Origin: Styela clava
Taxonomy: Eukaryota > Chordata > Ascidiacea > Stolidobranchia > Styelidae
Length of the DNA: 64,000 bases
Assembly: GCF_964204865.1 (NCBI RefSeq)
Contig: NC_135252.1
Location: 15,149,383 to 15,213,382, forward strand
Direction of reading: 5' to 3'
Shown here: positions 3,464 to 62,759 of the stretch, one piece after another
How positions within the stretch are numbered: the stretch's first letter is position 1
Layout: the number at the start of each line of letters is the position of its first letter
Notes under the pieces: generated by a model
The model's input: the letters and a program-made list of their open reading frames with translations, nothing else
What the model was told of the DNA's origin: nothing
Databases searched by the model: none
Made by a program: the position numbers and the translations under genes

Positions 3464-6400
3464 TCATTTTATCTTATCAAATTCTTCTGTTGACCACCTC
3501 CATTCATCAACAGATAACTGGTGTCTGTTAATATCCCATCCTTTTTGTTGCAATTCCTTACTGAATTCTGTCCAGTTTATTGCATTCTCTGGCTTCATAT
3601 GGTTTGAGATTTTTCCAATATGTGCTTCAAAATATGCTTTTATAACATCTTCTGGTATTGCTATGTCTCTAAATGCCACGCAATAAATCCCTAAAAAATG
3701 GCGGCACAGTTTGTTGGGAAATGTGATGGAGCTTCTAGTATCAGGACATCTCAAATATGACATCCTTGGGATTAGTGGTAGCAAACCAATTTACTCAATG
3801 CTTACTCATTTAAACTGATACTCACCTTGTTTCGAACTGGATATGAATTTTGTATTGGGATTGGTCTTCAATGTATGTATAAATTGTTCGCTGCCAATAT
3901 CAATCTCCCTCAACATGCAGCCTGCCCTAATATTTGGGTCTGGAAATCCTAGAAAATATCAGAGGTAATACCTGAAGTATATAAAAGAGGTGAAATTGCT
4001 ACATAGAAAAAATTATGGGCTGTCATAAAATGAGATTTTTTTTCGCATGGTTGAAAAGTCACATTGGATGAAGGCTGCTCTATATGTGGGGTTGAAAGCA
4101 TTTTTTAGTAGGAAGGATCGAGTAGTTCTGAAAAGGCAGACTGATTTGTTATTATTACTCATTTGGTGAGTAAGCAATTACTGACAGGGGAAGGATAGAA
4201 ATAAATATCCAGATGTCACATAAAAAGCGCTATTCACAGGCAAGTCAAGACCCTGTTCTAGATTTAATGCTGCTAACCTAAAACGACTGGTTCTTTCAAG
4301 TTTGCTGCAACTGGATCTAGAATTTCACCATATCCAGGACTTAAAAAGCAGTGATCAATAACTATCTTCAGTCGTGAATAGTTGAATGTATTCATGATAA
4401 CACATGATACGGCTTTGTAATTTGAGTAGATATGGAAGAATGTGAATATTGCAAATAGGATCCAGGTGAGTTGAATATTTCCAGAAACAATAGGCGTCAG
4501 GAACAGATTTATGATGAGTGCTGCAAGGTTTACCATGGTTTCCTGAAAATCAAAAGGTTACTAATGCCATCGATATTTGAAATCCACCCCCGACTGTGAA
4601 ATATTTGGATGAAAAAAGTTAGTTGTATGTAAGCCTCCTTCAATAAATAGTTGAGAACACTCGGTATACTTGATGCTTTTAGGAATTATTATAATCACCA
4701 CTGAAGGCTTGAAAATACAGCTCTGAAGCTCCCCTCTGATCCATATTCAACATGTTTTGATGTGTCAAGTCAAAATGGGTGCAAGCCATTTTTAATGCTT
4801 AAAACTTCATTACTTCCATATTTTTTAAAACCTTAAGCATGATATTCATTTAAACATTTTCATACTTGTGAGCCATCTTTTGCAGAAACATCTGCCATAT
4901 TATTTCGCCTAGCTTGGTGAACTGTAAGAGCTGCTCTTGTACAACCACCCGCGACACCGACCAGAGAAAAGGCAAGACCTAAACATTAATTGACAAATTA
5001 TTAAATTTTGAAATCCATGTCTTTAAGGTTATAGTCACTGGCACTTGTAGGTATTTGAATGAGAATTATGGTGGGATGAGACAGAACTATCATAATTAGA
5101 AATTAAATAGTAAGTCCAATTCGATTTACAATAGATTTGTTTAAGCTTTTTCATCTCACCTGCTACACATGTTATCGGTGTGAAGAATGATTTGGGAAAC
5201 AATGGTGCAACAAGTGTTACACATATTGCACAATCATTCAAAACATCTGCAAAGAGTCTCCATCTTTTTGCATCACGATCCAGATTTGCCCTGAATTTGC
5301 AAAATAAAATTTAGGCTTGCTTGAATTGATAGATGAGAATTCACAATCAACTGTTTTCCTTACCCTTGGTAATATGCAAATGCAATTCTTCCCACCATTC
5401 CTGTACCATCTAAAAAGATGAATAGTTAGTTGATTTGGTGCACCCTTGCAGACATATCAATTTGAACTCAGAAGTTTTAATATGATATTTGGTGATTGTG
5501 ATGGCCTAGTAGTTAAAGCAATAGACTTAATTATGTTGATATTTCACATCTCAGGTTCAAATCCCATTTGATAGGCGATGCAGAAATCAATCCTTCCCAA
5601 AATAGTATACCCTCACATATTGTTAGATATTAGTGGCTTCTAGTACAAAGCTTAGTCTGGAGCAAAAGGCGCTACAAGCATTGACCAAAAGTTATCGGGT
5701 GTGAACATAACAAACAATATACTAGAAATTCATTAAAGTACTGAATTTGTCCAAATCAGGTTTAGTTCATAACCTTTAAGAAGCCATGTCACAGTTGCAC
5801 TTGCAACATTGGCCGTTTCGTCACCCACACCAGATCCTTTCAGTACTGCCTGAGTTGCAAGAGCTCCAGTGATGCTGCTACAAAATGCTTGGATTGTATC
5901 CCATATCTAAAAATAAGTTATAATGCAATAGGCCGATGCCACGAGCTGTTTTCAATCCTAGTGCTACCACATGTCTTGGTTCAAAAACTGGTTAGAGCTT
6001 GGCTTTACAGTCTTAGCACTAAAAAATTGATCAGACAAAAAAGATGAACAGTTAAATTGACGAATTTTTGAAAACACTGAAAAAGACATATATCAGATTG
6101 AAAAGAGAATTTTTGTATCTCAATCGTGTTTGACATTCTTTTAGTAGTTCTATGATTATGCTTATGCCCAAAGCAACATATTTATAAAGATCTTTGTCAT
6201 TTTTCACTCTTTTATTGAAATCGAATGTTTTCTAATGTCAGATTTAATATTCTGACACAGCAACTGAGTTAGTTCTTACCTGATACTCAAGATAGTCATC
6301 GCTGACACTGTCAGGGTATCCTTGTGGCAAGAAAATGCTCTAAAAAAACAAATTGAATTTAAAGTTGCATCCAATACGACCAAACATACACTAATCAGTA

Positions 6401-12315: not shown

Positions 12316-12825
12316 GGATAACAGAATTCTTCGACTTTCTTTTTTTATCATTTCATTAAACCAGTCTGCCAGTAGACTGTAATGTCTGAATGTGTACGGC
12401 AGCTGTTCCAAAGTGAACTTGACGGCAAGTGTGCCTCGAAAATTCAAACATCGGTCAAACTGATAGAATATAGATTTCACTCAGTCACAATATACCGTAT
12501 AGCTGAAAAATCTGAGGGAACAATGACTATGACATCATTCATATTTTTGTTGTTTGAGTATTTATTTAGTTAGACATTGGAAAACTGTAGAATCTGCGTC
12601 GTACTTGCATATATTTCAAAAACTTGTATATCAATTTAGAACAACAACTGTCTGTTATGAATATTTTAGTGATGCTGATTATTCTAAATCAAAAACTAGA
12701 TAATATTTTGCCATCATCTCAGATTGAAAACCATGTAAAAATATTTTAAACTCTTATTTTTGATTCAGATCTAGAACTTCAATCAAACAAATTTGTTATT
12801 ACAAGATCATTTATTTGAAATAACA

Positions 12826-13131
12826 ATGGGTGATTATGACCCATGTGAATGTGTATGTAGCCACCAATGGGCAATGCAACGCCTTCTATCAATTTTGAGA
12901 TCATCACAGCAATACTGCACAGAAAATGAGTGCTTTGGAGAAATGCCAAATCAGGATATGCAACGTCCAAATGAAGACTGGGGCATGTTCATGATTATGA
13001 TGGGATGGATGGTGATGGCACTTATGCTTTTCATGGTGCGACCAGCAAGCCTCAGAGGGCAAGGAGATGGGAAGCCCAGGCCAAATGGAGATGGTGGACC
13101 CCCACCCCCAGATGTCCCTCCAGTACAATAG
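12826..13131 (+). CDS. SMIM14: Small integral membrane protein 14
   Basis: A 101-residue single-exon CDS, close to the usual vertebrate length (about 99). The N-terminus MGDYDPCECVCSHQWAMQRL keeps the family's DPCECVCSH signature. A conserved Cys pair region (YCTENEC, residues 30-36) follows, and one transmembrane segment lies at about residues 53-71 (rich in Met, Trp and Phe). The tail is Pro/Gly-rich and ends in DVPPVQ. SMIM14 is an ER membrane protein of unclear biochemical role. I chose the ATG at 12826 over the upstream in-frame ATG at 12793 because family members start three to five residues before DPCECVCSH. An acceptor-like tgattcag ending at 12768 suggests a 5' UTR intron. Assignment secure. 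Confidence 0.93.
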   Translation: MGDYDPCECVCSHQWAMQRLLSILRSSQQYCTENECFGEMPNQDMQRPNEDWGMFMIMMGWMVMALMLFMVRPASLRGQGDGKPRPNGDGGPPPPDVPPVQ

Positions 13132-36189: not shown

Positions 36190-37260
36190 TTATATCTAGT
36201 GATTGAAATTAAATAAACATCTTGTAATGTTGGAATGTAACAAATAGCTTAAATCCAATAAAACACAAGTTTCATAATTTTTCAAAAGTCTGGCATTATT
36301 TAAATTCCTAACAGTATTTTCCATGAAATCAAAAACATAATCAAAATATTCACAGTTCATAAAAAGATGGCTAACAAATTCTGGTTCTTTTCCACATAAC
36401 ACACACATATCATTTCCTGCTATATTTCTTATTCCAGGTTTTGTTTTTACTGGTAAAATATCCCACATTAACTTGAAATTAAAGGTTTTCATATAGTTTG
36501 CCAGAATATTATTATGAATATTCTCACATGCAATATTTAAATTACAATTGCGTAGAAAAATTAATCTGTCCCCAGTCATAGAAATAACAATTTTTTTATA
36601 AATAGTTTATGCATATCTTCTTTTATATCTGTACTACTTATGTTATGCTTTCTTAAAAATTCTAATATTAATCTATACTCACTTTGAGGACAAAATCTAT
36701 GTAAACATGTATTTTTAGTTCTAATCCCCCAAAATGTACTAAGTTGTTGTCCAATATTGTATTCAACAAAGGACATACAAATATGATTGTAATCCTCATT
36801 ATAATCACATTCTCTAGCTTTATAATAATCCAAGACACTAATTATGTACATGCACATTGTAAAAATGGGTATGTTAATAATATCATAACCCCACGAATTC
36901 CCTATTTTCAGTATGCTTCTTCCATTGAATACAAATTTTTCCACGTTTACTATCTAATAGATATGCATTCCCAATAAGCATATGCTCATAGTTGTATGCT
37001 TTCAGCGTACCATACTTCGAAACCCAAAACCAAATATGTATTGAAGAATTAAAGACCTCAATACGGTCAATTTTGCACCCGACTCGGCTGAAGCAAGAGA
37101 TTTTGGCAGCGAGCAATGCGTTTTCTTAATATGCAACGAACCATTTAGCCGGACGACGTAAAAAATGCAGGGAACAATACCAAAATGAGCAAATCTTTGC
37201 AAGTTTCCACTCATTGTATATATGCTCATTGATTGAGCTTATATTGCAAAAAACAGAACG
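36190..37260 (-). pseudogene. LINE fragment, ORF2 C-terminal region, minus orientation
   Basis: Three overlapping decayed ORFs read in order on the minus strand. First, MLAAKISCFSRVGCKIDRIE to NYEHMLIGNAYLL (37116 to about 36950). Second, EKFVFNGRSILKIGNSWGYD and TFWGIRTKNTCLHRF (36944-36576). Third, FKLMWDILPVKTKPGIRN followed by CVLCGKEPEFVSHLFMNC (36579-36196), again C-x2-C-x8-H-x4-C. Frameshifts separate them. The upstream 110 bp (37250-37140) also flanks the 38-bp minisatellite at 22.3 kb. No RT catalytic block is present, so it is truncated. Confidence 0.85.
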
Positions 37261-38234: not shown

Positions 38235-41200
38235 ATGGATATAGTTAGAGCCGCAGGAGACACTCCTTTGGTTTCCAACAGAGTCAGTGAGAAGGCGGAC
38301 TTGCAAAACCTAAACCATCGATTTGCATCGTACATTCAGTCTGTTCGAAATGCTCAAGAACGTGAGGTAAGTTTTGGATTATTTGTAGTCAAAGTAAATT
38401 AGATAATAATTTGCACAATTAAAATTCGACTATTTGACAAGATAAAATGTTTTGATAAGGTGAATGTAACTATATCATATTAGTTTATTTTGACTCCATA
38501 ATCAGCGGGAAAAAAACTGATAAAAACAAAATAAAACTGATTTTATAATCAGGAAAGAAAACAAAACCCTAAGTAAGGTTTAAAACGTACAGATGTTAGA
38601 TGGAAAAGTGTTGTTGATGAAAGAAGTGGTACATGTTGGCTCACCCCAAAACTAATTAAAACACGCACACATATACATACAAATACAATCACACAGACAA
38701 AATAAATGATGAGTTTAGATGATGAAATTTAGATCAGGTTTTATCCTGTATCCAGGAGTGAAATAGAGAAATATTGGTGCTCCCGAAGTATGCGAACCAA
38801 GATGGCGGACATCGGAACGTAACACCGGTAACAGGTTAGGGTTAGGCGATAATTTTTTTCCAATTTTCCTTATTTTAGTCCTATTATCAGTTCGAAGACT
38901 AGCCAAGAGCCTCCCGTAGTATTTATACCTAAAATTATGGCCTAACCCTAACCTAGTACACATATTACATTCCGATGTCCGCCATCTTGGTTCGCATACT
39001 TCGGGAGCCCCAAAATATTTTTGAAAAGATATCGCCAATTGCGAATATTTAGGGTTCTTCTAATAAGAGAGACAATTTCAATTGCATGCAAACAATTTTT
39101 TTGGAATTTTTATACCTATAAGAATACTTGGGAATCAATGGAAAGCATTTGTGGTTGAAAGTTTGATTAAATTGAATTCTGATTTTAAACAGCTTCAGCA
39201 ACGAAATTTGTTTGCTGAAAGCAGAAAACAAGCTGATATCCCAGATTCAATTCGACTACAGTATGAACAAGAGATCAGGGAACTTCAGGCAAAGTTGGAA
39301 GAAATGTCTCGAGAAAAACAGGAGCTTGAAATGTCCAGAGTAAAATATGAAACTACAACTGATGAGTATGAAAATAGGCAAGTTATCTTTGTTTCTTGCT
39401 TTTGATTAAAAATGTTGATAAATTCCACATAAAAGTGAATATAAATATTTTTGATCTTTGAAATGATTTTTTCAGTATTATTTTTTATGAGAAAACCCTC
39501 AATTCTCAAACTTGAAAAAAGAAGGCTTGATTGAATATTAAATTATATTAAACTACTTACAATGTTGCTTAGAAATGCCCAAATTACAAGTCGTGTCATT
39601 GGGTCATCTACTTGAGTTGAATTTGAGTTTAAAGTTGAGTCACTGAGCTAAGTCTCACTAGTGGAGTATGATTTCAGCACTACAGCTCTTTTTATCTAAC
39701 ATATCACATATTTTAAAATAAAAATCAGTGCAATTTGGGTTTGAAGGTCACACATGATTTTTATGATGGAAGTGACCAATGGGCACGGATCTCTTAGTTT
39801 TAAGCTTCGCTCTGCATAATTCTATCAAAACTACTGTGTTTGAATTTTTTATCATCAAAAATTAACATTACAAGAAGATTGAGATGTTGAATGACTGATT
39901 TATGACTTTTTTCATAGAATTGTCTCATTGAATGAAACTGTATTTGCGAAGCAAAATGAGCTTCAAAGGTTACATGGTGCATTAGCTGCAAAAGATGTTG
40001 AACTTCAAGAAGCAAGAGCTGATGCAACTCAGCCCAGACTTGCGTTAGAAGGTGCAAGAATGGAGACTGATGATCTCAGAAAAAGACTTGAAGAATCAGA
40101 AAGAAGGTTTGTTTGTTATTCGTTATCATTGACATCTCTCATTGCTTGTTAATAGTTGTTACGTATAAATAAACGATTTTGTATTCTTACAATTTGTACT
40201 TTTCAGATTACTTTTGGAAGGAAATGCCAAGTCAGACTTACAACAACGGTTGTCAAATATACAGAACAAAATGCAACAAGAAGTTCTTTTATATCAGCAA
40301 GTAACTAGAGCTTTATAATTTTTTTTTTATAAATGCTCAATCAATACATGTTTAAGTAAAATTTTTGAATTCTGACAAAACAAGATGATAGCCTTTTACC
40401 AGCCGTAATGTGATTCATCAGCATATGTTTAGGTTTGTTAGAAATCCCAGTTTAATTGAACTACAGAACATTCGAATGACTAGGCTCTAGTAAATATTAT
40501 GATATATGATACTAGGCGATACCAATTTTCTTAGATTCCAAGTTCCAACAAAGCGTTTCAGCAGAGGGATATCACTTTCAAGTAGAAACATTCATGAATT
40601 GTAACTGTCGATTATTTAAAACTTTTAGATCATATAACGGTAATTGATAACTCTTCTACTTTGTAGGAACAAACTGAAATGAGAAATAAATTAGAAAAAT
40701 CTCATCAACTCATTCTTCAACTTGAAGATAAAGTTAGGAAAGCAGGACAAACAGATTCAAGTCTTGCTGATATGATGAGAAAAGTGAGAGAAGCCAGTGA
40801 AGCTGAACTAAGAAGATTCATGGAAGAAACTGAAGCAAAATATAGTCTTAATGTAAGCAAGTATTTGTATTGAAACATAATATAAAAAATACTTACAGTA
40901 TATCATCATTTTCTTGTTATATGTGCTAATTTGTGAAATTCGGTTTTCACCATTACAGTAGTTGTAAAATATTGTCATGTCATTCAACAAATTTAAACTT
41001 TGCTATTTAGATACAAGAAGTTAAAATGCGGATGGATGCCAATGTCTCTAATTTGACTGCTCTTGTTGAAGAAAATGGAAATCTACGAGCACAAATCGAT
41101 ACACAGGCAGCAGATGTTCGAGCAATGGAAACAAAGGTAATAAATTCCAAAAGTTTGCTTTATATTGATGAAATGATTAATTTGTTGATCTTTTTAGTTA

Positions 41201-44200
41201 CCATACAGAGCTTCTTCTGATTTAATTATGACTTTTTTTTCTAGTTGTCAATGCTTGAAAATCAAAAAATCTCAGCTGAAAATGCATTGGAAAATGAAAA
41301 ATCCTTATTTCAATCACATGTTCGAGAGTTAGAAAGGAAGCTACAGGTATATTTTACGTTATATTTGGATGAAAGAAGTTTAAATTTGTTGAATAAACTT
41401 AAATTTCAACTTAAATATAAATACATTAAACATTGAACATTCATACAGAATTGATCGAAGGCTCTCATATTGATCTTTTATTGAGAATTAATGATAGTCT
41501 TATAAAGAAATCACATTAGATATTCATTCATTGAAGAAAAAAAACTTGTAACTAATTTATATCCTGAATGAAGTTTTGCGTTTACTTTGTATAAATTGAA
41601 TAATAAAAAAACTTGTGACCAATTTATAACTCTTACCGGTAATTCATATTTTTTGTAGTTGGATCAGAATTTGATAGAAAAAGTTTTTATAATTTCAGGA
41701 AACCCAGGATCTCCTATTGGTTAAAATTCAGGAACTTGGTATTGCTCAGGAGGCAAATATTCCATTAAAAGCGGAAATCAATGCTTTGAAAACTTTGATT
41801 GAGGAAGAAGAAAGAAGGTGTCTTATTTTTATAGTTTATTTAAATTAATAAAAAATCAATCAAACAATTAATATCAGCAATTGAAGTCAAATAATTTAAA
41901 CATTTAATCTTTAATGTAGATAATTTGAAAAACAACCAGTGCTTACAGTTACTCTGTTCTGAGGATTGATCTTCAATATGTTATAAGTCTTAACAATTTT
42001 TTATTTTTATGCTTAGGACCAGACTGCTTAACAGTGTAACGTCTATCACAGGAAATCTTCTGATACTTTTCATAATATGTCATATTTCACATAATAAAAT
42101 ATTTTCCATTAATTCTAATACTTTGCATATCGTTAACATTGGAATCAAGTTATCCATTCAAGTATTAAAATCTAAAAACATCAATATTATTGATAACAAC
42201 TCTTCGACACAATTGTGTTTATGTTTCCACCATGCTCGTACTACTAACTTCATTCCAATTTTGAGTGTATGCTCAAATAGTTACCAATTACCATCTATGT
42301 GTATACTATGTATCATTACTGTGTTCGCCAATTATTTTGGGACAATTTTGAGCGCGGCAGATTTAGCTTCGCCAGGATTACCCAAAAACGCTATTAATAT
42401 GAAAGTAGCATCTTGTTTTTATTTTTTTTAGGCTGAACACACGTTTTGTTTCATCGCCTGAAAATATGTTTATGGCATCACTCACTAATCAACAACTGTC
42501 ACCCTCTCCTGCATTTGTGGAAACATTGGGTGGATTGCCACAAAAAAGTCCAGATTACACTAGCATATCAAGGGCAACCACCTCTCCAGGGGGCTTATCT
42601 CCGAATCACCTTTTGGGAACGAGCAGTAGTTATCACAGAGAAACAAATGCTTCAACTTCTTTTCCTTTAAGCAAACGTCCTTCATCAGGTCCAAGCAAAA
42701 CAAGCTCTTCTAAGCAGGAAGATATATTAAATATACCTAGATCTGCTCCTACATATATACCAACGACTTCTGATAGATTATTAAGAGGAAATTCGAATGA
42801 ATTCGAGGTTTGTAATGAATTTTACATTGAAGTAGTGCCTATATTTAAATGATGGACAGTATATTTTATGTGCTGTATCATCAGATACAATGCACTTTTT
42901 TAGATGTTTTTTTGAACGTTTCTGTTTGGTCACATAGTATGCCAAATTTGATAGATATGCCGTATAGTTATCCTATATGGTAAAAATCTTTGGAAAATAA
43001 TTTAAAATAGTTTTAATAATTTCAACTTCAGGTTGAAAAAAATAATATAAAAATCATTTTAGATCTATTATATCATCTAAGATAAAAATAGGCTCAGAAA
43101 TGCGGTGCATCATACTGATTGTCAGGATTACACTTGTCACTGCACATCTGATTACACTGTTTGAGTTTGCACGCTCAAATACTGTGTGGGATAATTATGT
43201 GCGAGTTATTGCTGGATTCCTCTCCGCCGTAAAATGGTTCACATAACCGCTGGTTAGTTACGGCTTTCTCCACCATCAAGTCCATGCAACAGAAGCAAAT
43301 ATCTAGCTAAATAATTCTATACCCATCGACCAATGACTGGTAACCGAACGAGAATCCATGGTTTTCCATAATGATTAGGCAATTTTATTAGCTTTCCTCT
43401 CCATCAGGATAAATATGTAACTTCTACCTGAGATTTTATATTTCTGCGTGAGAAAAGAGAGAGAGAGATTTATTGCCAAAAAAACAAAGTCAACACTATT
43501 ATAAATTATTACCTATATTATGAAATGTAAGTTTATTTACTGAATGTCAAAAGCTTGCAACTAAGGGTTTGAAGCTTACAGATAGATGGTTCACAATCAA
43601 ATTTTGATACGCTAAGAGCTATAAAAGATTCTATTAATGTATATTTATATTTTTACCACTTCAATCAAGGATCCAGATATTTTAAATACATTTGAGCAAC
43701 TTCTACAAAATCCCATCGTTCTATTACAGAGCAAAGTTCTTACACCATTGTCTGAAAGTGCAAGTAGTGATTTGTTTGATATGCGGCAAGGAGATGACAA
43801 CAATAACATCAAACGTGGTCCACTCGTTGGAATGGACGAGTTACCACCCAGACCAGATAACCCAACTCCAACACCATTACCCTCACGTCCATTAAGTGCA
43901 TCTAACTCAAGATATATCTCATCTGCAGGTAGGTAATTTGCAAAATTTCGATGATGAGGCTTGGAAGGTGTTTTCATAGTTCATAAAAAAAAGATTCTGT
44001 ATACTTTTCTCCTGTTTAGTTTTGTTTTGTGAACCTCTTGTTATTCATTCTTCTGTATTTTTACTCGAAGAGCGTGTATAATGTAATATCAACAAATAAA
44101 AATGTAATGAATCAGTGAACAAGAAAATTCTGTCATTGGTTGTACTTGTCTACCTGTTTTGAGACGTTCGAAGATCACAATGAGTGTTCAATTGTATTAC

Positions 44201-47200
44201 TTTTGTTACCCTGTACTGATGTCCTCCATAACACTTTGCGACCATTATCTCCAGTCAGTATTCACTAGTTATTATATTGACAATATTGATTTAAATTAGA
44301 ATTCTTGAATAAATGGAGACTTGTTGAAAAAGAATCCAAATTGTCAATTAAAGTTTATTTCATTCCTTGAATCTACAAATATGCCATGCAACTATTTCCA
44401 TTTGTTGTTAAGGCCAAGGAAAAGACTACTTCGATGCCATGTTCAGTGACATCAGAAAAGATACTTTGTATTCAAGAGTAACGGAAGAAGACACCGGTCC
44501 TTCCACTGCTCATATTTCTTCTGTTCATCAGGACATGATCAACTCAACTGGAAGGTACTTTGTATAATTTTATTATGGAGTATTTTATAATATAATGACA
44601 AATATATTTATAGTGATTCAATGGTCTTGCTGCACAATAACACAAATATATTTCTGTAACATTTCATCTGGCCATCATCCTCATCCTCTGGCCATCATCC
44701 TCAGGCGTTACAAAATATATTTGTATTAGTGTACAACAACACTCCTAAATCCATAAGGGTAGTTATCTTTACTCTTGCTACAACATCCTTGCATTATATG
44801 TATTCGGATCCACCGGCACATAGAAGAAGGATAAGTAGTTAGTCCTGCAAAAACCAAATCATTAGCACTTATGCATTTATGATGTACAAATTTGCAGTGA
44901 ACAAACCATTCAAATTTCAATCAGATTGATAGATTTCGAGCTGCATTTTGAATTTATATAACTTGCTGTCAGAAATAGTTTAATTTGAAATGTTTGAAAA
45001 AGTTGAGTAGGCACTTTTAAGATTCATTAGATCCATGTTTGGTAAACTTTAATAAAGTCACCATGTTTTTAAATAATCAGACATCTACTTGATATCAAGT
45101 TCTTGTAAATATACTTCAATACTCTTTGTTAATATTATTTCATGCTGTGATACAATACATAAAATAAATGGAATTCTTTTATCAGTTATAATTGTTGACA
45201 GTGCTTCATTGTACACTGAATCAACATTGGCGTTGTATTGCTTATTTATACTTTTACCTTCAGCCAACCTATAGCTGGTTCCAGCAATAAAATATGGTAT
45301 TCTGGAGCTACAACCAGGTTACAAATTGTATTATATAGCTTACCGTGATATGCTGTGAGCTGAATAACAGTGTGTATATTGCAGATTAAAATAAACTGCT
45401 CTTATGCAATTAATAATTAATCCTTCGCTAAACTCTGCGTATAACTATATTATAAAAAATTGAATTCTATGTGATGGAAAATTATTCTATTATACATCAA
45501 AATTATGTTATTTTAGGTGTACAATGAATAATAATATAATTTGTCTGAAGCTTTTGATTTTACCACACAGAAGCAAATTTACCAATAATGAAAAATTTAA
45601 ATTTTCTAATTACAAAATTTTTAAACAAATCTGTTTGAGTATCACATTTTTCAATTTTCAATCAAAATGAGGTAAATTACTGGGGTATTTCTCAATTATC
45701 AACTTTATTTCTAAATAAAAAAATTTCCGTATTTCTGATTTGCTTTGTTTATAACTTGGTTGCGCAAACTTCGAATAATGTCTTCAAGCAATGAATTGTT
45801 TTGTTTTACGATGTCTCTGTCTACGTCTTAAGCCGACTAGTCATAGACGAGTATTTGTGATTGCTTTTAATAATTTATGTATATTAGGAGACTGTTGACT
45901 AAATTGGGTGTGAAATTGTTGTGTTGCTAAATTTTTATGTTATCATCGGATTTGATTTGGAACATATTTAAAATTATAATTATCAAAGCTACTTCACCAA
46001 GATGGAGAATTCAAATTCAAATTTTGGTTTACACCACCATTTGTGGCTTTTAATTTGTATCAAAGTAATTGAATTGAGAAATGTGAAACCTTGAGAGTTT
46101 GCATTAACCAGGACTGTGTTTTTAGCATCCCAGCTTTCGTAATTTTTTGTGCTAGAATTTCATATTTACTTGAAAGATATTTATTACGATTAATATGACA
46201 TTTGAAAGGGATAATAATTGATAAGGAAAACAGTTTTACGACCATTTTAGAATATTTTAGAACTTCACATTTTGAGCAACAGATTTGACATTTATGAAAC
46301 TGATTAAAGATCTCCTAGATACCACTCAATAACTGATAAAATTGTACTTGGTATCTGGCAAGAACAAATATTATGTTGTTGTTTCCTTTCAAAAAGGATA
46401 TTAGAAATATTTTCTAAACTGCTTTGTGAATCTTGAACTAAGAAGGATGAGGTATATCCTATAATCAAAATTTCAAACCATGGTATCCATCATACTTTAC
46501 AATAATAAATTAATAAAATTGGACATCTATATTTGCAATCCTTAGTTTTGCTTTCATTTTATTATTCAACTTTATAATTGTTCAATTGATTAGTACACTA
46601 TATTTGAAAATCATTGTAATTAACTGTAATCTATATGTTAATATAAAAATAACCTTTCCATTCATCCAGTGCCACAGGAAATGTGAAAGTTCTACAAGTT
46701 GCAGATGATGGATCGTGTGTAGTTGTTAGCAACACATCTGCCACACAAGAAGAAAATATCGGTGGTTTTATGTTGCAACAATCTGTTGGAGGGCATCCTG
46801 TAGCTGTGTTTAGATTTCCTCCTAGAACCAGACTGAAGCCATCAACTACTACTACAGTAATTTGCTTTTGTGAATCATGACTATCTCTTGTCTTATCAGA
46901 AATTATCAGAGACAAATAAGATGTTTCTGGATCAATAACTTGTATTTGGACTTTGTTAACACTTTAACATTGATATAGCCATAATAGCATAGTGGTGAAA
47001 ATGTGGGATTCAACCATGTTAGCATCACATGATAGAGATCACTGGTTCAAATCCCATGCCCACCACCTCACCCAGGATGCCAATATTTAAAGATTCCAGT
47101 CCTTCCAAAAACGCATGGCGCTTTCTTGTATATCGTTTACATTTTGTATAGAGCCTCGTTCAGAGTGAGATGTGTGAAAAATTCCACAAAAAAAATTTGG

Positions 47201-50107
47201 ATCATGTCTTACTGGTATTCTAATACAGATCAAGCTAAAAAAAACTCAAACTTGATCATTTCCACATCTACTTTCCAGGTTTGGAGTGCAAGAGCATTGA
47301 ATGGGGTTCACAATCCACCATTCCATTATGTTTGGTCACAGCTTGATAAATGGGGAACGGGACCAGAATGTACAACAATTCTATGTAAACCAAATGGTCA
47401 GGCAATTGCATGGGTGACATCTGCTACAGTAAGTACATCTCTTTTTTGTGAGTTTTTGTATTAATAATATTCAAGTTACAAGTAGGAATGCATAGATAAA
47501 TTTATTCATCATAAAACTTTTTTCGGGGATTGTGATGTGTCTTAAATTGTGATGAATTGGATAGACTTTGTGTAGATGAAAAATGAGCTCTAGGTTGAAA
47601 GTAGAACATTAGAAATTAGCACAGACGTAGCTTGAATGATAGATAGAAGGATTTTAACATTTGCAAAGATACAATACTTATGTCATTTTTCTGATGTTGG
47701 ATAATATCAAAAGGTTTTTCAAAAAGTAGTAATATTTATAGATGTTTTGAATCATAGAGGCTTGTTTTTCATTTGTATTAATCTTTCAGGATCTCCACTG
47801 CCTTGGATCATGTGAGCCAGAAAATGCAGTTGATAGATAAAAGTATAAGTATACTGATATTATTTTAGAAATGAGATACAGTAATATCATTGTTGAGGTG
47901 ATATGAACAGGTACCGGTATAACATATCAGTATTAGTACAGATTTCAGGATGGCATATAACTCTTAGTTGTGTGAAAGTTTTAGTTAGCTGAGTGTTGTT
48001 ACTTATGATATAGCAGATCATACACGGTCATGTAAATGTTGTTAGCAGTAAAATAAAGCAAAATATGATACACCTGAGTACAAGGGAGCAAGTGCCAGCA
48101 ACATTAAATAAATACCATCTGGACCTCCTGAAGTATGCACACCAAGATGGCGCAGAATCTGAACTCCGGTTGTGTACCAGGTCAGCGTTCAGGTTGTGCG
48201 ACGTTTTGGTGCGCATACTTCGAGAGTGCCTACAATTTCATGAATAAAGACATGATGTTTCATATATCAACCTCATTCCATTCTGGAAAAAGACATTATA
48301 AAGCAACAAATCGTTTTTGTATTCTCGTGGAACGGAAAGCAATACAGTAAATAATAATATTTTTTTTTATTAGCGCACAATGAAGGCTCACAGAGGATAC
48401 AAATATGCTCCGAATGTCAGTCAGCAATCTGAGGAAACACAAAAATTGTTAGAAGATATTCGAGTCAAGGTAAAATGAATCTTTGTTTTATTATTTTGAT
48501 ACTTGTATGGTAATATTTGCAATCCTAAAATTATAAAATAGAGATGAGGTAATAGGCACTCTCTCCCATGGAATGCATTTTTCAAATATCCAGAAGTATG
48601 CAAAACATGGACTAAAAGAGTTGTAATTACAGAATGTGGCAAGGATGCAAATTGGAAACATTTGGCACATTAGGTATGCTATTGTCCAGCCTAGGACCCA
48701 GAACGTCAACATGCATGAATTGCAATTTTTTTGATAATGTGTTTCTTCTAAACTAATGTGTTCATTATCCAATACATAACTTACCGGTAATTAACAAACT
48801 TGGTTTTCTTACAATATAAATTATTAAAATTTGCTGTGTTAAATTTCATTGTTGTTACTTCCATTTATAGAATCAACAAAATGATTTTGATGAAGATTCA
48901 GAAGACGAATGGAAACCTGATCCAGTTACTTTACCATCAATGTACACATCGAAACCAACTTTATATAGAGATACTGGATATAACCCTAGGCCAAATCCAA
49001 CCATAAGAAAGTAAGCAATATTTTTGACTTACATCTTAGCATATTTGACTAAAATGAAAAAGTATTAGATGTGCACTGCAATCATCTGTTGAATTGGCAC
49101 CCCTTCTCATCACAATGAAAAAGTAGCCATAGTGTATTTATCAGTCACATCTGCGTCAATCAAGGTATTTTTTTCTGATTTCCGCTGCAAAGACGAAAAA
49201 TCTTTTGGTTCGGGACTTTTTTGTCATGTTTTTTTAGAGAGAGGCTAACAACAGTACAGACTTACTCAAGTCTGTGAGATTTTTAGGATTGATTAGGCCT
49301 ATTCGCATCTTTATCTCTGAACAAGGCCACGTAAAAGCATTCACTGATATCAAGCTACCATATTTGGAGCGAATGGAACCTTCAATGTGATAGTCTACCT
49401 GATTTATCACACCCTGGACCTGAGATTTGTAACCTGTGATGCAGAAGATTCGATTAGCTGCTAGGCTATCACATCTATGTGGGGATTTGACAATACTTAT
49501 AAGATCTCAAGATGTCAACACGGTCACAGTTTTTCATAATTTGCAATTGTCACGTTTTTTCGTATTTTCAAGTTTTTGTTCATGTCCCTTCATATCACAT
49601 ATCAACAGAAATAATTTCTTTTCATATCACAGACCAAGGTCATCACCAGGATCACGAACATCTGCATCTATGGGTCTGTTGCCTTCACGTACTGGCAGTG
49701 CACCATTGTATCTACATCAACCAAGAACATCTGCAACACAAGTGAGTGGCAACAGTTCGTATATTCCTCCCTGGTCACTTTACTGCCAGGAAGAAGATGA
49801 TAACACTAATTATACTGAAATTAAATCTGCCCCTTTGAATCGTACTACTAATAACATAACACAAGATTGTGATAGGCTTCAGTCTGCACCTGCTGGAATA
49901 AGAGGGACTTACGATGAAGTGCCTAGAAAATCCCCAGGGCAGAGTGCCCGCATTCATCTTCCAGGCACATTTTGGCCCCCTGCGGAACAACACCAAAAAG
50001 GCATGGAGTGGTTGAGGTCACAACATAACATTGATTTTCTACCACCCATGCCTAAGGCATTCCCTTGTGTTACGCCAACATACAGAACACTGAATAAGTC
50101 GTACTAA
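38235..50107 (+). CDS. Lamin-related protein: lamin-length coiled-coil rod plus lamin tail domain (LMNTD1-like), 16 exons
   Basis: Exons: 38235-38366, 39193-39377, 39918-40106, 40207-40300, 40667-40852, 41011-41136, 41245-41346, 41699-41817, 42432-42807, 43670-43928, 44413-44554, 46670-46856, 47279-47428, 48374-48469, 48871-49010 and 49633-50107. All phases agree, giving 985 residues. Residues about 18-44 (EKADLQNLNHRFASYIQSVR) match the start of a lamin coil 1A. The coiled coil runs to about residue 377, ending EINALKTLIEEEERRL, like the lamin coil 2 end; about 355 residues is lamin rod length. A Ser/Pro-rich linker (378-636) follows, then an Ig-like lamin tail domain (637-750) with VFRFPPRTRLKP and, as in LMNTD1 (IFLTD1), CTTILCKPNGQAIAWVT. 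The C-terminus ends TPTYRTLNKSY with no CaaX box. Intron 2 is GC-AG (AG/GCAAGT). Its likely role is a nuclear or ciliary filament scaffold (inference). Confidence 0.9.
38776..39010. mobile_element. Palindromic MITE, long form (family A), in lamin-related gene intron 1
   Basis: About 45-bp terminal inverted repeats: GGTGCTCCCGAAGTATGCGA then ACCAAGATGGCGGACATCGG, mirrored at the right end. Interior carries GGTTAGGGTTAGGCG and GCCTAACCCTAACC in inverted arrangement. This is the best-preserved copy. Confidence 0.88.
43098..43430 (+). mobile_element. tRNA-derived SINE, family 1, degraded, in lamin-related gene intron 9
   Basis: Recognisable by ATAACCGCTGGTTAGTTACG, TCCACCATCAAGTCCATGC, ACCGAACGAGAATCCATGG and GGATAAATATGTAA in family order. 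The tRNA head is mostly lost. A GAGAGAGAGATTTATTGCC patch follows at 43460. Confidence 0.75.
46975..47175 (+). mobile_element. tRNA-derived SINE, family 2, in lamin-related gene intron 12
   Basis: A-box-like ATAGCATAGTGGTGAAAATG and B box GGTTCAAATCCCATGCC. The tail TATAGAGCCTCGTTCAGAGT parallels the copies at 5495-5700 and 8600-8790. Confidence 0.68.
48121..48230. mobile_element. Palindromic MITE, short form (family A), in lamin-related gene intron 13
   Basis: Arms GGACCTCCTGAAGTATGCAC and GGTGCGCATACTTCGAGAGT are inverse complements. The core holds ATCTGAACTCCGG and GTTCAGGTTGTGCG. Confidence 0.78.
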
Positions 50108-54905: not shown

Positions 54906-55575
54906 TAGTTTTTACACAGTCCTAACGCGCGTATCTTTAATATTTGTCAAACTAATTCAATTCATATCGAATGACGTCAGCCAGTCGCGGTATTCTAATT
55001 AAATTAGGTTATCGATCCCAAGCTTCAATTATTCACGCTCTGTTGGTCGTTGTTGCCGACGGGGTAATTGTACTGTAGAGCGCAGTCAATTTAATTCGCT
55101 TTGAGGAATGCAGTCAGTAATTCGTTGAAGATATGACCAAAAGTCGGTTCGTCTGGTCCGTTATTGAACTTGCGTTCTGCTCGATTCAATTATAGAAGTC
55201 AGACAGAAAAGATTTGTTATATTGTGCAGATCTTTCCAATCTCAATAAACGCATAGCTTTCAGTCACGTTTAGAAGAGAATGTCTCAAGGGACAATTGTA
55301 CATATTCAGCAACAAGCCGTCAGTACTGGAGATTGTTATGAGTTATGGATCCGAACTTATTCTGAATACTCAAATTGATATATCTTACCCCCAGTACCGG
55401 TACCTCAGCAACGGTCACAATTCGAAAATGATACTTAATTACAACGGAAACGGACTTTTTTGTTTTATATTATTGAATAGAAATCGATGTAGATATTCAT
55501 GTAAAAGCAAAGTGTACATGTCTTAACTTGTTCAATATTTCAGAAACTATCCAAGCTTAGAAAATAGTAACAAGT

Positions 55576-57573
55576 ATGACTGAATATGAAGAGAGTAGTG
55601 TGGATAAACTCGAAGCACAAGTACATATGATGCAATATCAACGACTACCCTATTCACTATTGAACTATTATACTGTGGATGGTCAACTAGCTGATGGTAA
55701 ACTTCTAGCAGAGTGTAAAACGTGCTTTGCTAAATGTCGATATAGTCCAAACGTAACATCAAATCTTGTAACTCATTTAAGAAATCGACATCCCCATAAG
55801 CACGCCGAGTACGAAGCAAACAGACCGACTAAAGTGGGTCAACGTCGACGACTGAGGAAGTCAAATAGCATTGAAATTCAATCTACGTTCACAATAATAA
55901 AAGAAACTCAAAATCCAGAGGAAATACGAAAACTAAGAATCACCAAGAAACTTGTATCAACCATTGCATATGATTGTCTGCCCATAAACATCGTAGAAAG
56001 TCCATTTTTCAGGGATTTGTTTTATGAAATGGATCAAAATTATATTATGCCGTCCGCCGAATCGATGAAAAACTGCCTACTGCCCGAATATGCTTCTAGA
56101 ATGGAAATTTCGCTGCGGAAAGAGCTGGAGACTTACAGTCGTCTATATCTCACTGTCGATATGTGGACGAAGCCCAGAATCACCAGCAACGTAGTATCAT
56201 TTTTGGGAGTTACGGTGCACTTCATAAACGACGATTGGGAGCTGAAGTCGCGTGCCCTTGGCTGCAGCTTCTTTGAGGGTGAAGTTAAAGTATCTGCTAT
56301 AGTCAGCGCTTACGAAAATGTTGTTGATCGGTATAATTTGAGAGGAAAAGTAAGAAAGTTGTTTGTGGACAACGCGGCATCAATGGAAATGGCACTCGAT
56401 ACATCTTTTCCAGGTTTTCATTCTGAAAATATCAATCAAATAAATACCACTGGTAGGATTTTCGATTGTGACATTGCATTTCGTGATGCAGGTAATGCAC
56501 TACCAGACGGCAACAGCTTCAGACAAGCCCAACTGTTGTGTGTGAGAGATGGCCTGATGCATCCCGAAGTGCAAGGATCTTCCATGACATTTACACTGTT
56601 GAAGGTTTCCACTCTTATAAATTCTCTTTCGGCCTCGCAAATTGGCCACGCGTTTATTCAGGAGAGAGGCATATACTTGAAAGTTAAAAACGAAGTAAAA
56701 TGGATGGCACAAATCAAAACCTTATCATCAATAGTTGAGAATCCAAATGAGTTTAATGTTGCCGTGAATTTGTTGAATGCAAAAAGTAGAGATAACCAAC
56801 TCAATACTTCCGAAATTTTGGTTTTGAGAGAATTACTTTTAATAATGGAACCTTTCATGGAAGCCCTGGAGTCTGGAGACAGTGACTCTCAAATTTCTAT
56901 ATCTGCAATCGGGCCGATCATTTGTGGACTGAAGCAATCTCTTCAGAGTATACTAGACGTTGGCTTGAAGCATTGTGCTAAACTCGCAGGTGTATTGTTG
57001 GACGCAGTTACCACACGCCTAGATCCGTTTTTAGACTGTGATGATGTTAAATTTGCATCGTTTCTGGACCCACGATTTAAATTAGAGTGGATCCAATCGC
57101 CCCTTACTCGGGATCAGTTATTAACGAACCTCCGCAGTACGCTGAGAACAGAATTGGGTGTTCAGAAAAACACCAGCGAAATTATGAAATTAAATGAAAC
57201 GCAGCATTTGAACGAAATCTCTATTCAATCACCCAAAAGACCACGCCTGTTTTCATGTTTGTTTTCAAACTCCAGGCGAGGGCAAGATGAAAACGATTTC
57301 GTTTCAAAATGTGTCGATGAATATGTAAAGGAGAGCGTTGTACCATTTCACAACGACCTTCTTAACTACTGGAAAAATTCTCCTAAATCATTGCAACCTT
57401 TAAAAAATATGGCTCGAGATATTCTTCCCTGTTCCACATCATTGTCTTATTCTCGTCGCATATTCAATATTGCAAAGAACTATTGTTCCAATATGAGTGG
57501 TAATGCCGACGCTGAAACGGTCCGTTTGCTTATATTTTTAAAATGTAACCATGAACTTATGGAGAAGTTATGA
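55576..57573 (+). CDS. BED-type zinc finger, hAT transposase-derived protein (ZBED-like), intact 665 residues
   Basis: A single uninterrupted ORF. The BED finger is at residues 47-72 (C47-x2-C50-x16-H67-x4-H72). A basic stretch (QRRRLRKS) follows, then an hAT RNase H-like core with the first Asp at 195 (LTVDMWTK), the second at 265 (FVDNAAS), and a MEPFMEALESGDSDS block (425-439) where the third acid is expected. The C-terminal hAT dimerisation-like region is at about 585-660 (LLNYWKNSPKSLQPLKNMAR). Usual hAT signatures are altered: the C-x-x-H motif reads SFRQ (314-317) just before LCVRDGL, the RW motif reads VKW, and the ER-x-FS of the dimerisation domain reads SRRIFN. No flanking TIRs or target duplications were found. 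This suggests a domesticated or immobile gene, possibly DNA-binding. ATG at 55576 was chosen because the frame is closed just upstream; an acceptor at 55542 implies a 5' UTR intron. Confidence 0.88.
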   Translation: MTEYEESSVDKLEAQVHMMQYQRLPYSLLNYYTVDGQLADGKLLAECKTCFAKCRYSPNVTSNLVTHLRNRHPHKHAEYEANRPTKVGQRRRLRKSNSIEIQSTFTIIKETQNPEEIRKLRITKKLVSTIAYDCLPINIVESPFFRDLFYEMDQNYIMPSAESMKNCLLPEYASRMEISLRKELETYSRLYLTVDMWTKPRITSNVVSFLGVTVHFINDDWELKSRALGCSFFEGEVKVSAIVSAYENVVDRYNLRGKVRKLFVDNAASMEMALDTSFPGFHSENINQINTTGRIFDCDIAFRDAGNALPDGNSFRQAQLLCVRDGLMHPEVQGSSMTFTLLKVSTLINSLSASQIGHAFIQERGIYLKVKNEVKWMAQIKTLSSIVENPNEFNVAVNLLNAKSRDNQLNTSEILVLRELLLIMEPFMEALESGDSDSQISISAIGPIICGLKQSLQSILDVGLKHCAKLAGVLLDAVTTRLDPFLDCDDVKFASFLDPRFKLEWIQSPLTRDQLLTNLRSTLRTELGVQKNTSEIMKLNETQHLNEISIQSPKRPRLFSCLFSNSRRGQDENDFVSKCVDEYVKESVVPFHNDLLNYWKNSPKSLQPLKNMARDILPCSTSLSYSRRIFNIAKNYCSNMSGNADAETVRLLIFLKCNHELMEKL

Positions 57574-60292: not shown

Positions 60293-60356
60293 GATAAGTT
60301 GAACCAGATTACTTAGACTACCGATACCATTACAGCATTACCTGTACCAATTCAAA
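60293..60356 (+). promoter_or_regulatory. 64-bp intercistronic spacer with candidate trans-splice acceptor
   Basis: Too short for a terminator plus promoter in an animal genome. It contains CCATTACAG ending near 60337, a plausible splice acceptor about 20 nt before the HIGD2A ATG, and no AATAAA. This fits a spliced-leader operon arrangement as known in tunicates (inference). Confidence 0.4.
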
Positions 60357-60722
60357 ATGTCTGGAGAAAAGAAACAAATGACAGAGGCTGAAATATTGTC
60401 ACAGCTTCCTGATGGAATTCAACCTCGTCAATTTATAAATCCCAGTATGCCCCAGTATACATCAGCTAATATATTTGATCAAGAAACGACTGCTCAGATG
60501 GTGTGGAGAAAGTTTAAAGAAAATCCTTTTATACCATTAGGACTGGGCGGAACAGTATTTTTCTTGACACGTGGTATCTTGAACATGGGGAATGCCAAAG
60601 TATCACAAAATATGATGAGGGGGCGTATACTTGCGCAGGGTTTCACTGTGATGGCTATTGTTGCAGGTATAGCCATTGAAGGAATTAGAGCTGACCGTAA
60701 ACAACGAGAAAGCAATGAATAA
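60357..60722 (+). CDS. HIGD2A: HIG1 domain family member 2A
   Basis: A 121-residue single-exon CDS. HIG1 domain: KENPFIPLGLGGTVFFLTRG with the first membrane segment at about 57-76, the matrix-loop signature SQNMMRGRILAQGFTV (83-98, the QGFT core of HIG1 proteins), and a second membrane segment at about 92-110. The N-terminus is longer and more polar than human HIGD2A. HIGD2A is a mitochondrial inner-membrane factor that assists cytochrome c oxidase and supercomplex assembly (COX3 module). The ATG at 60357 is the first in frame. Stop at 60722. It is close behind the ANAPC16-like gene on the same strand. Confidence 0.93.
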   Translation: MSGEKKQMTEAEILSQLPDGIQPRQFINPSMPQYTSANIFDQETTAQMVWRKFKENPFIPLGLGGTVFFLTRGILNMGNAKVSQNMMRGRILAQGFTVMAIVAGIAIEGIRADRKQRESNE

Positions 60723-61784
60723 TGATAAATTATCTACAGATCAGATTTTTAATCTTGCCTTGAATTGAATTAAAAAAGTTTGACATACGGTCCGTACAGT
60801 CATAAGCTGTGCATGCCTAAGCTGCTGTGTCACCATTAAAGTAATTAATAAATTAAACTATTATCCATGCATTAAAAAAATGCATTTTACCATGAGACAT
60901 GAACATCAATATATTGGCGGTGTAATTTTCATGTTTATAATAACAAAAGCATCGCTGTTTCAGGTATCTTGATTTCCTAACAATGTGCCAATGTCTGAAA
61001 TAGTTATAACAATAATTTTCTTGATAATAAAAATGAAAAAGACGTTTAATGAATTTCATATGTACGAGTGATATTAAAAATAATAATTTTCAATTTAAAG
61101 TATTTTACTGCATTTTGGCTTTTTATTTCTGGTTTACTTGTAAGATGAATCGTAATATATCCATGCTTTCATTTTATCAATTGTATAATATGGATGTATT
61201 ATGTTTAGGGGAACATATATTATGTCAAATTAATAATTAAATCTGGAAATGTGTTTTGATTTTAATCTGTCTAAATATAGATTAAATTTGTCTGTGACCA
61301 ATGCTTATATTGGTTCTTTGAGAAGGTATGAGTGATAATAACTGTGATCATTTTTACTCTAACATTTGGTGCCAATTATTGCGGATTTTGTAGTGACACC
61401 CGAACTACATCCTGGTATTTTTTCTCGGTATATCTCAGAACAAACTGTCCATTTTATCAATACCTCTATAATAATAATTTTTAACTAATTTGTATCAAAT
61501 TAGGTATAATTAGTTCCTATCTTGGCCCCCAAAATAAATGAAAATTTGCCTGACAGCAGTGTAATAATGACAACACTGCTAATATGAATGCACTCGATGG
61601 CTTTGACCAAAAAGGCGAAACTTGAACAAGCTGTGTTAAGGCATTGAGTGAAACGTATATTTTCCAAACTTCTTTGAAATGAATAGTGGAAATTGCTTCA
61701 AACTATGATTACCGGTAGTTATTATTGTTGTTAATTATTGTTGAAATACTTTTCTTCCAATTACAGATATATTTTATAAAAATA
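60723..61784 (+). other. HIGD2A 3' UTR, then SAP30BP 5' region
   Basis: Poly(A)-like ATTAATAAATTAAAC near 60846. AT-rich and otherwise unassigned. An acceptor (CCAATTACAG ending 61766) lies just upstream of the SAP30BP ATG, implying a 5' UTR intron or a trans-splice site. Confidence 0.45.
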
Positions 61785-62759
61785 ATGTCAGGCTTAGACG
61801 CTCTTGCTTCATATGATATATCTGATGAGGAAGATGAAGAAAAAAAAGTAGAAGAAAAACCAGAAAAAGAAGAGAAAACTCAAACATTAGAGCCCCAAGA
61901 GAAGACTAACGATAAACCGAAATCACCTTCACCTAAGGGGACTATCGAAGATCAAGAAGATATTTGGCAAGATCCAGATGAACATATCAATGATGATGAT
62001 GATGAGGAAAAAGAGGAGGAAGATAAAGACTCAAATGATCCGGAAGATGCTATAAAAGATGTTGAGGATCTCTCGGTGATTCATGATGGGAGTGACGTGG
62101 ATGAGGCAGAAGAAGATGGAGGAAAAGAAAGTAGTGAAGGGGAGGAAAATGATGATGTAAGCAATCTTGGTGATACATTAATGGCAAAAGCGAAGCGAAG
62201 AGCGAAACGAAAAAGTTCTGAGAGCGCTACCAATCTGGCAAAAAAACTCCGATCTGCTTCTGTTGATGAAGTAAGCATACCACCTGAGCCGGAAGGAAGA
62301 TGTTCAAGCAGTTTACAGGATAAAATTACTAGATTTATGGAACGGAAAGTGACACATGGGGAGGACTTAAATCAAGCGATTCAGTCACGAAAAGATTTTC
62401 GCAATCCTAGTATTTATGATAAACTGATTCTATATTTAGGTATTGATGAATTAGGAACTAATTTTCCACCTCAGGACTATAATCCAAAACGATGGAGAAA
62501 AGTTCCTAAATATGACGAACTTGCAAGAGCTCAACGTGAAGATATGGCCAAGAGGGAGAAAGAGCGTAAAACTAAGGTTGAGTTTGTTACAGGAACAGTT
62601 AAAAAGCCATCTTCAACCTCAAGTCAAGGTGGTTCTGGGGATCCGGTAAAAAAATCAAAATGGGATCAGCAAGGTTCGAGAAGTTCCACAGAAAAAATTT
62701 TGACTCATAAAACAACTGTTATACCTGCTGTTGGGAATATTAAAAAACCCAAACCCTGA
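61785..62759 (+). CDS. SAP30BP: SAP30-binding protein (HCNGP family)
   Basis: A 324-residue CDS without introns. The N-terminus MSGLDALASYDISDEEDEE matches the family's LxxLAxYxxDSE-like opening. Residues 20-130 are highly acidic, followed by a basic patch (KAKRRAKRKSS, about 135-145). The HCNGP domain (about 160-250) carries SIPPEPEGRCSSSLQDKI, RKDFRNPSIYDKLI and IDELGTNFP. The C-terminal part keeps KVEFVTGT, KSKWDQ and KTTVIPAVGNI, ending in a short basic tail. SAP30BP acts with SAP30/Sin3 repression complexes and in pre-mRNA splicing. The in-frame upstream ATG at 61725 lies before a splice acceptor (ends 61766), so the ATG at 61785 is preferred. Polyadenylation signal TCTAATAAATG near 62789. 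Confidence 0.95.
   Translation: MSGLDALASYDISDEEDEEKKVEEKPEKEEKTQTLEPQEKTNDKPKSPSPKGTIEDQEDIWQDPDEHINDDDDEEKEEEDKDSNDPEDAIKDVEDLSVIHDGSDVDEAEEDGGKESSEGEENDDVSNLGDTLMAKAKRRAKRKSSESATNLAKKLRSASVDEVSIPPEPEGRCSSSLQDKITRFMERKVTHGEDLNQAIQSRKDFRNPSIYDKLILYLGIDELGTNFPPQDYNPKRWRKVPKYDELARAQREDMAKREKERKTKVEFVTGTVKKPSSTSSQGGSGDPVKKSKWDQQGSRSSTEKILTHKTTVIPAVGNIKKPKP

Follow-up and report, generated by a model that had tools for sequence, protein, structure and literature searches.

A lamin-related gene with a filament rod and a lamin tail domain in Styela clava, probably a tunicate member of the nematocilin family

Gene structure at the locus

The window analysed here is a stretch of 64,000 nucleotides of the Styela clava genome (contig NC_135252.1, 15,149,383 to 15,213,382, forward strand), and positions below refer to it unless a contig is named. 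It contains one predicted gene on the plus strand at 38235-50107, in which 16 exons join into a single open frame of 2898 nt, encoding 965 amino acids and a stop. GT-AG borders were found for 14 of the 15 introns, the sole exception being intron 2, which is of the GC-AG type (donor GCAAGT at 39378). An earlier note on this DNA had described 16 exons agreeing in phase; the entry phases indeed match in all 16, and the exon count and coordinates are right. Judged from these sequence features, the gene model is well formed and real. Its exons and domains are as follows.

38235..38366, plus strand: exon 1, the head of 17 residues, then the beginning of coil 1A (SEKADLQNLNHRFASYIQSVR); Filament match from aa 18
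39193..39377, plus strand: exon 2, rod, with a GC donor at its end; the intron that follows falls at lamin position 118 (phase 2)
39918..40106, plus strand: exon 3, rod (coil 1B), from the gene model
40207..40300, plus strand: exon 4, coil 1B part of the rod, followed by an intron at lamin position 213 (phase 0)
40667..40852, plus strand: exon 5, rod, followed by an intron at lamin position 270 (phase 0)
41011..41136, plus strand: exon 6, coil 2 part of the rod; its 126 nt equal the length in the model of the animal's own lamin; followed by an intron at lamin position 312 (phase 0)
41245..41346, plus strand: exon 7, rod (coil 2), from the gene model
41699..41817, plus strand: exon 8, end of the rod (LIEEEERRL), followed by an intron at lamin position 385 (phase 2)
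42432..42807, plus strand: exon 9, Ser/Pro-rich linker
43730..43928, plus strand: exon 10, Ser/Pro-rich linker
44413..44554, plus strand: exon 11, linker, reaching the tail domain
46670..46856, plus strand: exon 12, N-terminal half of the lamin tail domain (model, Pfam and PDB match)
47279..47428, plus strand: exon 13, C-terminal half of the lamin tail domain; carries CTTILCKPNGQAIAWVT
48374..48469, plus strand: exon 14, C-terminal tail
48871..49010, plus strand: exon 15, C-terminal tail
49633..50107, plus strand: exon 16, Pro/Ser-rich part of the C-terminal tail, with the stop codon; last residues LNKSY, without CaaX
38286..41817, plus strand: whole rod domain, introns included (aa 18-378, Pfam Filament); exon 9 supplies the last base of the codon of aa 378
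46670..47419, plus strand: whole lamin tail domain, intron 12 included (aa 617-726, Pfam LTD); exon 11 supplies the first two bases of the codon of aa 617

The exons of the linker and the C-terminal tail (9, 10, 11, 14, 15 and 16) were inspected for open frames. In exons 9, 11, 14 and 15 solely the predicted frame is open, in exon 16 it is open up to the terminal stop, and exon 10 has one extra open frame on the minus strand. When codon usage was compared over all six frames, the predicted frame ranked first in exons 10, 14, 15 and 16, which is weak evidence, while in exons 9 and 11 a minus-strand frame containing stops ranked above it (0.149 vs 0.145 in exon 11).

Introns 1 and 13 contain fold-back inverted repeats (38771-39016, 86-nt arms, 88%; 48125-48226, 40-nt arms, 80%) that resemble small DNA transposons, and by eye similar peptide readings occur elsewhere in the window. 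On the minus strand, a zf-RVT (reverse-transcriptase-associated zinc-binding) fragment (36199-36606) precedes the gene by about 1.6 kb, and a 670-residue open frame with a hAT dimerisation region, in which a BED finger scored below the cut-off, lies on the plus strand at 55561-57570. Further features of the window are the C-terminal end of a UVB-sensitive protein (3467-3790, minus), DUF2615 (12775-13128, plus), a HIG1 domain (60303-60719, plus) and an HCNGP domain (61719-62756, plus).

Rod and tail domains of the predicted protein

In the earlier note, the N-terminal 377 residues had been read as a full intermediate filament (IF) rod followed by a lamin tail domain, and profile searches for both had been proposed. 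Both domains scored above the curated Pfam cut-offs. The Filament profile was matched over its whole length (1-313) at aa 18-378 (E=4.3e-16; 59.9 bits vs a cut-off of 40), starting directly after the 17-residue head, and the coil 1A start and the rod end IEEEERRL that the note had pointed out are present in exons 1 and 8, respectively. As a control, nine versions of the rod were produced by shuffling heptad blocks, and five of them were scanned with the Filament profile. None of the five matched, compared with 65.6 bits for the unshuffled rod, which argues that the match does not reflect coiled-coil composition alone. The best PDB match of the rod is human lamin A/C (1e-9), with aa 9-291 aligned to chain residues 22-303. 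The rod also aligned to the entire rod of the animal's own lamin, described below, and the gaps relative to lamin A 18-299 are small, so the rod is of lamin length. The end of the rod is diverged: it reads LKAEINALKTLIEEEERRL, whereas the own lamin has LDMEISTYRKLLEEEEARL at that place, and the usual consensus is LDxEIxxYRKLLEGEE.

The lamin tail domain (LTD) was detected at aa 617-726 (E=3e-11; 44.1 bits vs a cut-off of 34.3), which bears out the earlier reading. Its best PDB match is again lamin A/C (2e-15), and 33 of 106 aligned residues are identical to lamin A. A total of 21 PDB sequences were matched, namely 16 lamins and five antibody chains (E 0.2-0.8), and none of them is named LMNTD1. 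The earlier note had called the wording of this domain LMNTD1-specific; the string CTTILCKPNGQAIAWVT is indeed encoded in exon 13, and its resemblance to LMNTD1 is putative. The rod and the LTD are separated by a Ser/Pro-rich linker of 238 residues, where a 2115-nt intron is also found. The LTD is followed by a Pro/Ser-rich region of 236 residues (aa 730-965), for which no Pfam profile scored above its cut-off.

Targeting signals typical of lamins were then searched for in the protein. No classical nuclear localization signal (NLS) was found, as there is no K[KR]x[KR] motif, no match to the bipartite pattern used and no 7-residue stretch with at least four K/R. The last residues are TLNKSY, so a C-terminal CaaX motif is absent as well. 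As for the SP (CDK1) sites that flank the rod in lamins, the only SP/TP site on the N-terminal side is a TP at residue 10, while SP sites at 386, 401 and 403, among others, lie on the C-terminal side.

The lamin of Styela clava and shared intron positions

A canonical lamin is encoded on the same contig (C3:5968439-5982593). Its model, built by joining eight rod exons and the next exon, reads in order an SP site (STPLSPS), the rod, the rod end YRKLLEEEEARL, ISPG and RRKRKR, a basic NLS-like run, and PDB lamin A matches its rod with 1e-51. One exon of 126 nt was taken from a length-guided scan, in which the coiled-coil one of two candidates was chosen. A candidate end reading CVVM lies 2 kb downstream of the modelled lamin; it is the first past the rod of three candidates in a CaaX pattern scan of 12 kb (C3:5980001-5992000), and it was assigned to the lamin by its position and an upstream splice acceptor. 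Between the rod end and CVVM, tblastn with two LTD queries, a motif scan and a reading of the frames all failed to reveal a tail domain. This agrees with the Ig-less ascidian lamins reported in passages of PMC4448529 and PMC4680568, which cite Riemer 2000. The two proteins of this animal thus form a mirror pair, one having the tail domain without the anchor and the other having anchor signals with no tail domain detected. On another contig, a near-identical partial copy of the lamin rod exons was observed (C18:3045324-3046890, minus strand; 58 of 61 residues in one piece), which may be a duplicate, a haplotig or a pseudogene.

The rod of the window protein is 24.2% identical to that of the own lamin (67/277) and 24.5% to that of human lamin A (68/277), while the own lamin and human lamin A share 39.0% (110/282). 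In a profile alignment of nine rods, these values for the window rod are 23.9% and 24.0%, compared with 25.1% to human vimentin, so identity alone does not place it on the lamin side over cytoplasmic IFs. The unrooted tree of the nine rods, which included no nematocilin, joined the own lamin and human lamin A at 98% and placed the window rod beside the lamins on a very long branch at 65%, with the cytoplasmic rods scattered. These cytoplasmic rods had been pieced together from exon matches above 8 bits, and one of them covers only 174 positions. The tree carries no weight beyond the lamin pair.

Intron positions were also compared with respect to a common origin. Five of the eight rod introns of the window gene match the own lamin in both codon and phase (118.2, 213.0, 270.0, 312.0 and 385.2 in lamin A numbering). 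A sixth lies one codon apart (346.0 vs 347.0), and the other two are at 58.0 and 181.2, compared with 73.0 and 162.1 in the lamin. Assuming uniform and independent sites, the probability of at least five coincidences by chance is about 3e-10. Because the own-lamin exon at 312.0 came from the length-guided scan, this position was also omitted; the other four are free of that choice, and under the same assumptions at least four coincidences would occur with a chance of 9e-8. Human LMNA presumably has the same five rod intron positions, as well as an intron just ahead of the tail-domain tryptophan, which we take to correspond to the one after residue 679 in the window protein. Equal distances of the rod from the own lamin and human lamin A are expected for a duplicate that predates the tunicate-vertebrate split. 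As far as these sequence comparisons go, the window gene fits an old lamin duplicate, but fast evolution would produce a similar picture.

Genome searches for further tails and rods

The genome (376.6 Mb, 379 contigs) was searched for other domains of these types. With the window LTD as protein query, the only two matches were the two exons of the window gene itself. The LTD of human lamin A matched both of these exons (E 0.006 and 0.33) and one place on C6 (E 0.42). The latter was dismissed by eye, as it contains an internal stop and none of the three forward frames reads like an LTD. Hence, the window LTD is the only one in the sense that no other was found by two protein searches. The Pfam LTD profile gave no match in the genome, but since it also missed the exon-split domain of the window gene, this blank is not evidence of absence. 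Likewise, the Filament scan (40 matches, E up to 1) caught the window gene only through exon 1 (E 0.11), so further diverged rods may have been missed.

Five loci encoding cytoplasmic-type IFs with short rods were observed and partly rebuilt from exon matches (L026, L028, L029, L030 and L031). In the partial nine-rod alignment, human vimentin is the most identical partner for four of them, while L026 is barely nearer to another of the five. Lamin-tail searches at these five loci gave no match. The window protein has an IF rod in common with cytoplasmic IFs, with identities of 17.5-23.3% to the rods of the five loci and of 25.1% to that of human vimentin. It differs from the five partial rods in that they have no match above 8 bits over profile positions 104-138 (coil 1B), which the window rod fills; passages of PMC4829535 describe chordate cytoplasmic rods as lacking six coil 1B heptads.

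As a separate observation, a cellulose-synthase-like glycosyltransferase exon, hydrophobic exons and, downstream, a GH6 domain were found on one strand at C9:16177232-16180173. Cellulose synthase joined to GH6 is a hallmark of tunicates, and this locus marks the genome as one of them. COX1 gave no match in the assembly.

Relationship to nematocilins and LMNTD1

Nematocilins were described by Kollmar 2015 as eumetazoan lamin duplicates with a rod, an Ig domain and a conserved tail, whose rod was lost independently in the fish and mammalian members; the conserved nematocilin tail domain (NTD) is defined in Supplementary Fig. S6 of the same work (PMC4448529). Narrower descriptions are found in passages of other papers, according to which nematocilin has no homologues outside Hydra (PMC2687796) or is medusozoan-specific (PMC12464826), and Hering 2016 terms Kollmar's bilaterian nematocilins 'putative' in one passage (PMC4829535). 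The earlier note had suggested a form linking LMNTD proteins to lamins. The content of this suggestion is probably right, but such a form is not new, as its architecture was already described by Kollmar (PMC4448529). The window protein has the same order as these lamin-derived proteins, including that of the Hydra cnidocil core, with the rod at aa 18-378, then the Ig/LTD at aa 617-726 and then a C-terminal region at aa 730-965. Based on this architecture, and not on a tree, we consider it quite probable that the window gene is a tunicate member of the nematocilin family and an old duplicate of a lamin gene.

LMNTD1 and LMNTD2 are mammalian LTD proteins other than lamins. LMNTD1 (IFLTD1) shares the lamin tail domain with the window protein, but lacks a rod in mammals, whereas the window protein keeps one. 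LMNTD1 is likely the mammalian nematocilin; as the words LMNTD and IFLTD are absent from the main text of PMC4448529, this identification is an inference of the present analysis. According to one study, zebrafish and chicken both lack an identifiable Lmntd1 orthologue (PMC6609395); this is hard to reconcile with nematocilins in fish and counts against LMNTD1 as the mammalian member. With respect to expression, LMNTD1 is among the five genes named as most downregulated in a passage on dog nasal swabs with falling ciliary genes (PMC11345268), it appears in a human testis-specific list excerpted from PMC7436996, and Lmntd1 is described as high in mouse lung endothelial clusters in part of PMC10131515, which also speaks against LMNTD1 as the mammalian member.

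Alternative explanations

The canonical lamins share with the window protein a lamin-length rod, the five rod introns seen in the own lamin and the tail fold of the human lamins, while the lack of a classical NLS and CaaX, the absence of the YRKLLEGEE rod end and the long Ser/Pro linker set the window protein apart. Readings closer to the lamins were weighed as well. The earlier note had offered a diverged tunicate lamin as an option, and the combination of rod and tail domain would suit the sole nuclear lamin of the animal. This reading can practically be set aside, because the separate lamin at C3:5968439-5982593, with its 39.0% rod identity to human lamin A, its SP sites, RRKRKR and CVVM, refutes it, and the window protein itself has neither a classical NLS nor CaaX; the window gene was accordingly rejected as the animal's lamin. 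It is also very improbable that the rod exons come from one gene and the tail exons from its neighbour. The 238-residue linker and the 2115-nt intron between the rod and the tail domain would leave room for such a division, but the frame is continuous across the 15 introns, the linker and tail exons are open in the predicted frame, and the order of rod, linker and tail is that of lamins. Phase, splice sites, this lamin-like order and the common rod introns together assign the rod and tail exons to one predicted gene.

More serious, though still unlikely, is the reading that the canonical lamin was duplicated within tunicates and that the copy, having lost the NLS and CaaX, evolves fast and works as a nucleoplasmic or cytoplasmic lamin. 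The introns in common with the lamin agree with this, as does the 65% position of the rod beside the lamins in the tree, and lamins without CaaX are indeed listed by Kollmar (PMC4448529). Moreover, the second lamins of ichthyosporeans, as described by Koreny and Field 2016 (PMC5630835), lack the CDK1 site, the NLS and CaaX, so such losses alone do not define a family; the same source mentions eukaryotic non-lamin LTD-like proteins without coiled coils. However, the window rod is no nearer to the own lamin than to human lamin A. In addition, since the searches revealed no tail domain in the own lamin and ascidian lamins are reported to lack one, a tunicate-specific duplication must have predated the loss of this domain, which also counts against it. 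An old duplicate of the nematocilin type is thus the reading that we prefer.

Proposed function and significance

The rods of the window protein would be expected to dimerise in parallel and to assemble end-to-end and side-by-side into filaments, from which the tail domain would face outward and bind partners. These filaments would lie outside the nuclear lamina, because the protein has neither an NLS nor a prenylation site (CaaX). The likeliest site would be the cilium, by analogy with Hydra nematocilin in the cnidocil core; a passage of PMC12464826, citing Hwang 2008, describes the cnidocil filament as formed by this protein. A ciliary filament role is our best guess for the window protein, at somewhat less than even confidence; besides this analogy, the fall of LMNTD1 alongside ciliary genes in dog nasal swabs and its place in the testis-specific list are hints in that direction. 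Vertebrate LMNTD1 would then be a rodless descendant of the nematocilin family.

Most interesting among these results is how the window protein contrasts with the own lamin, where the searches revealed no tail domain. One genome here offers a natural split between a lamin anchor without a detected tail domain and a tail domain without an anchor. A bolder and rather doubtful proposal is that the tunicate lamin lost its tail domain while the lamin duplicate kept it, so that the sole lamin-type Ig domain would belong to a filament outside the nucleus, perhaps in cilia, and mammalian LMNTD1 would be the rodless remnant of a eumetazoan ciliary IF. If the identification of LMNTD1 as the mammalian nematocilin is true, a mammalian protein of unknown function would be tied to a form that keeps its rod in tunicates, the vertebrates' sister group, where this form is open to tagging and deletion.
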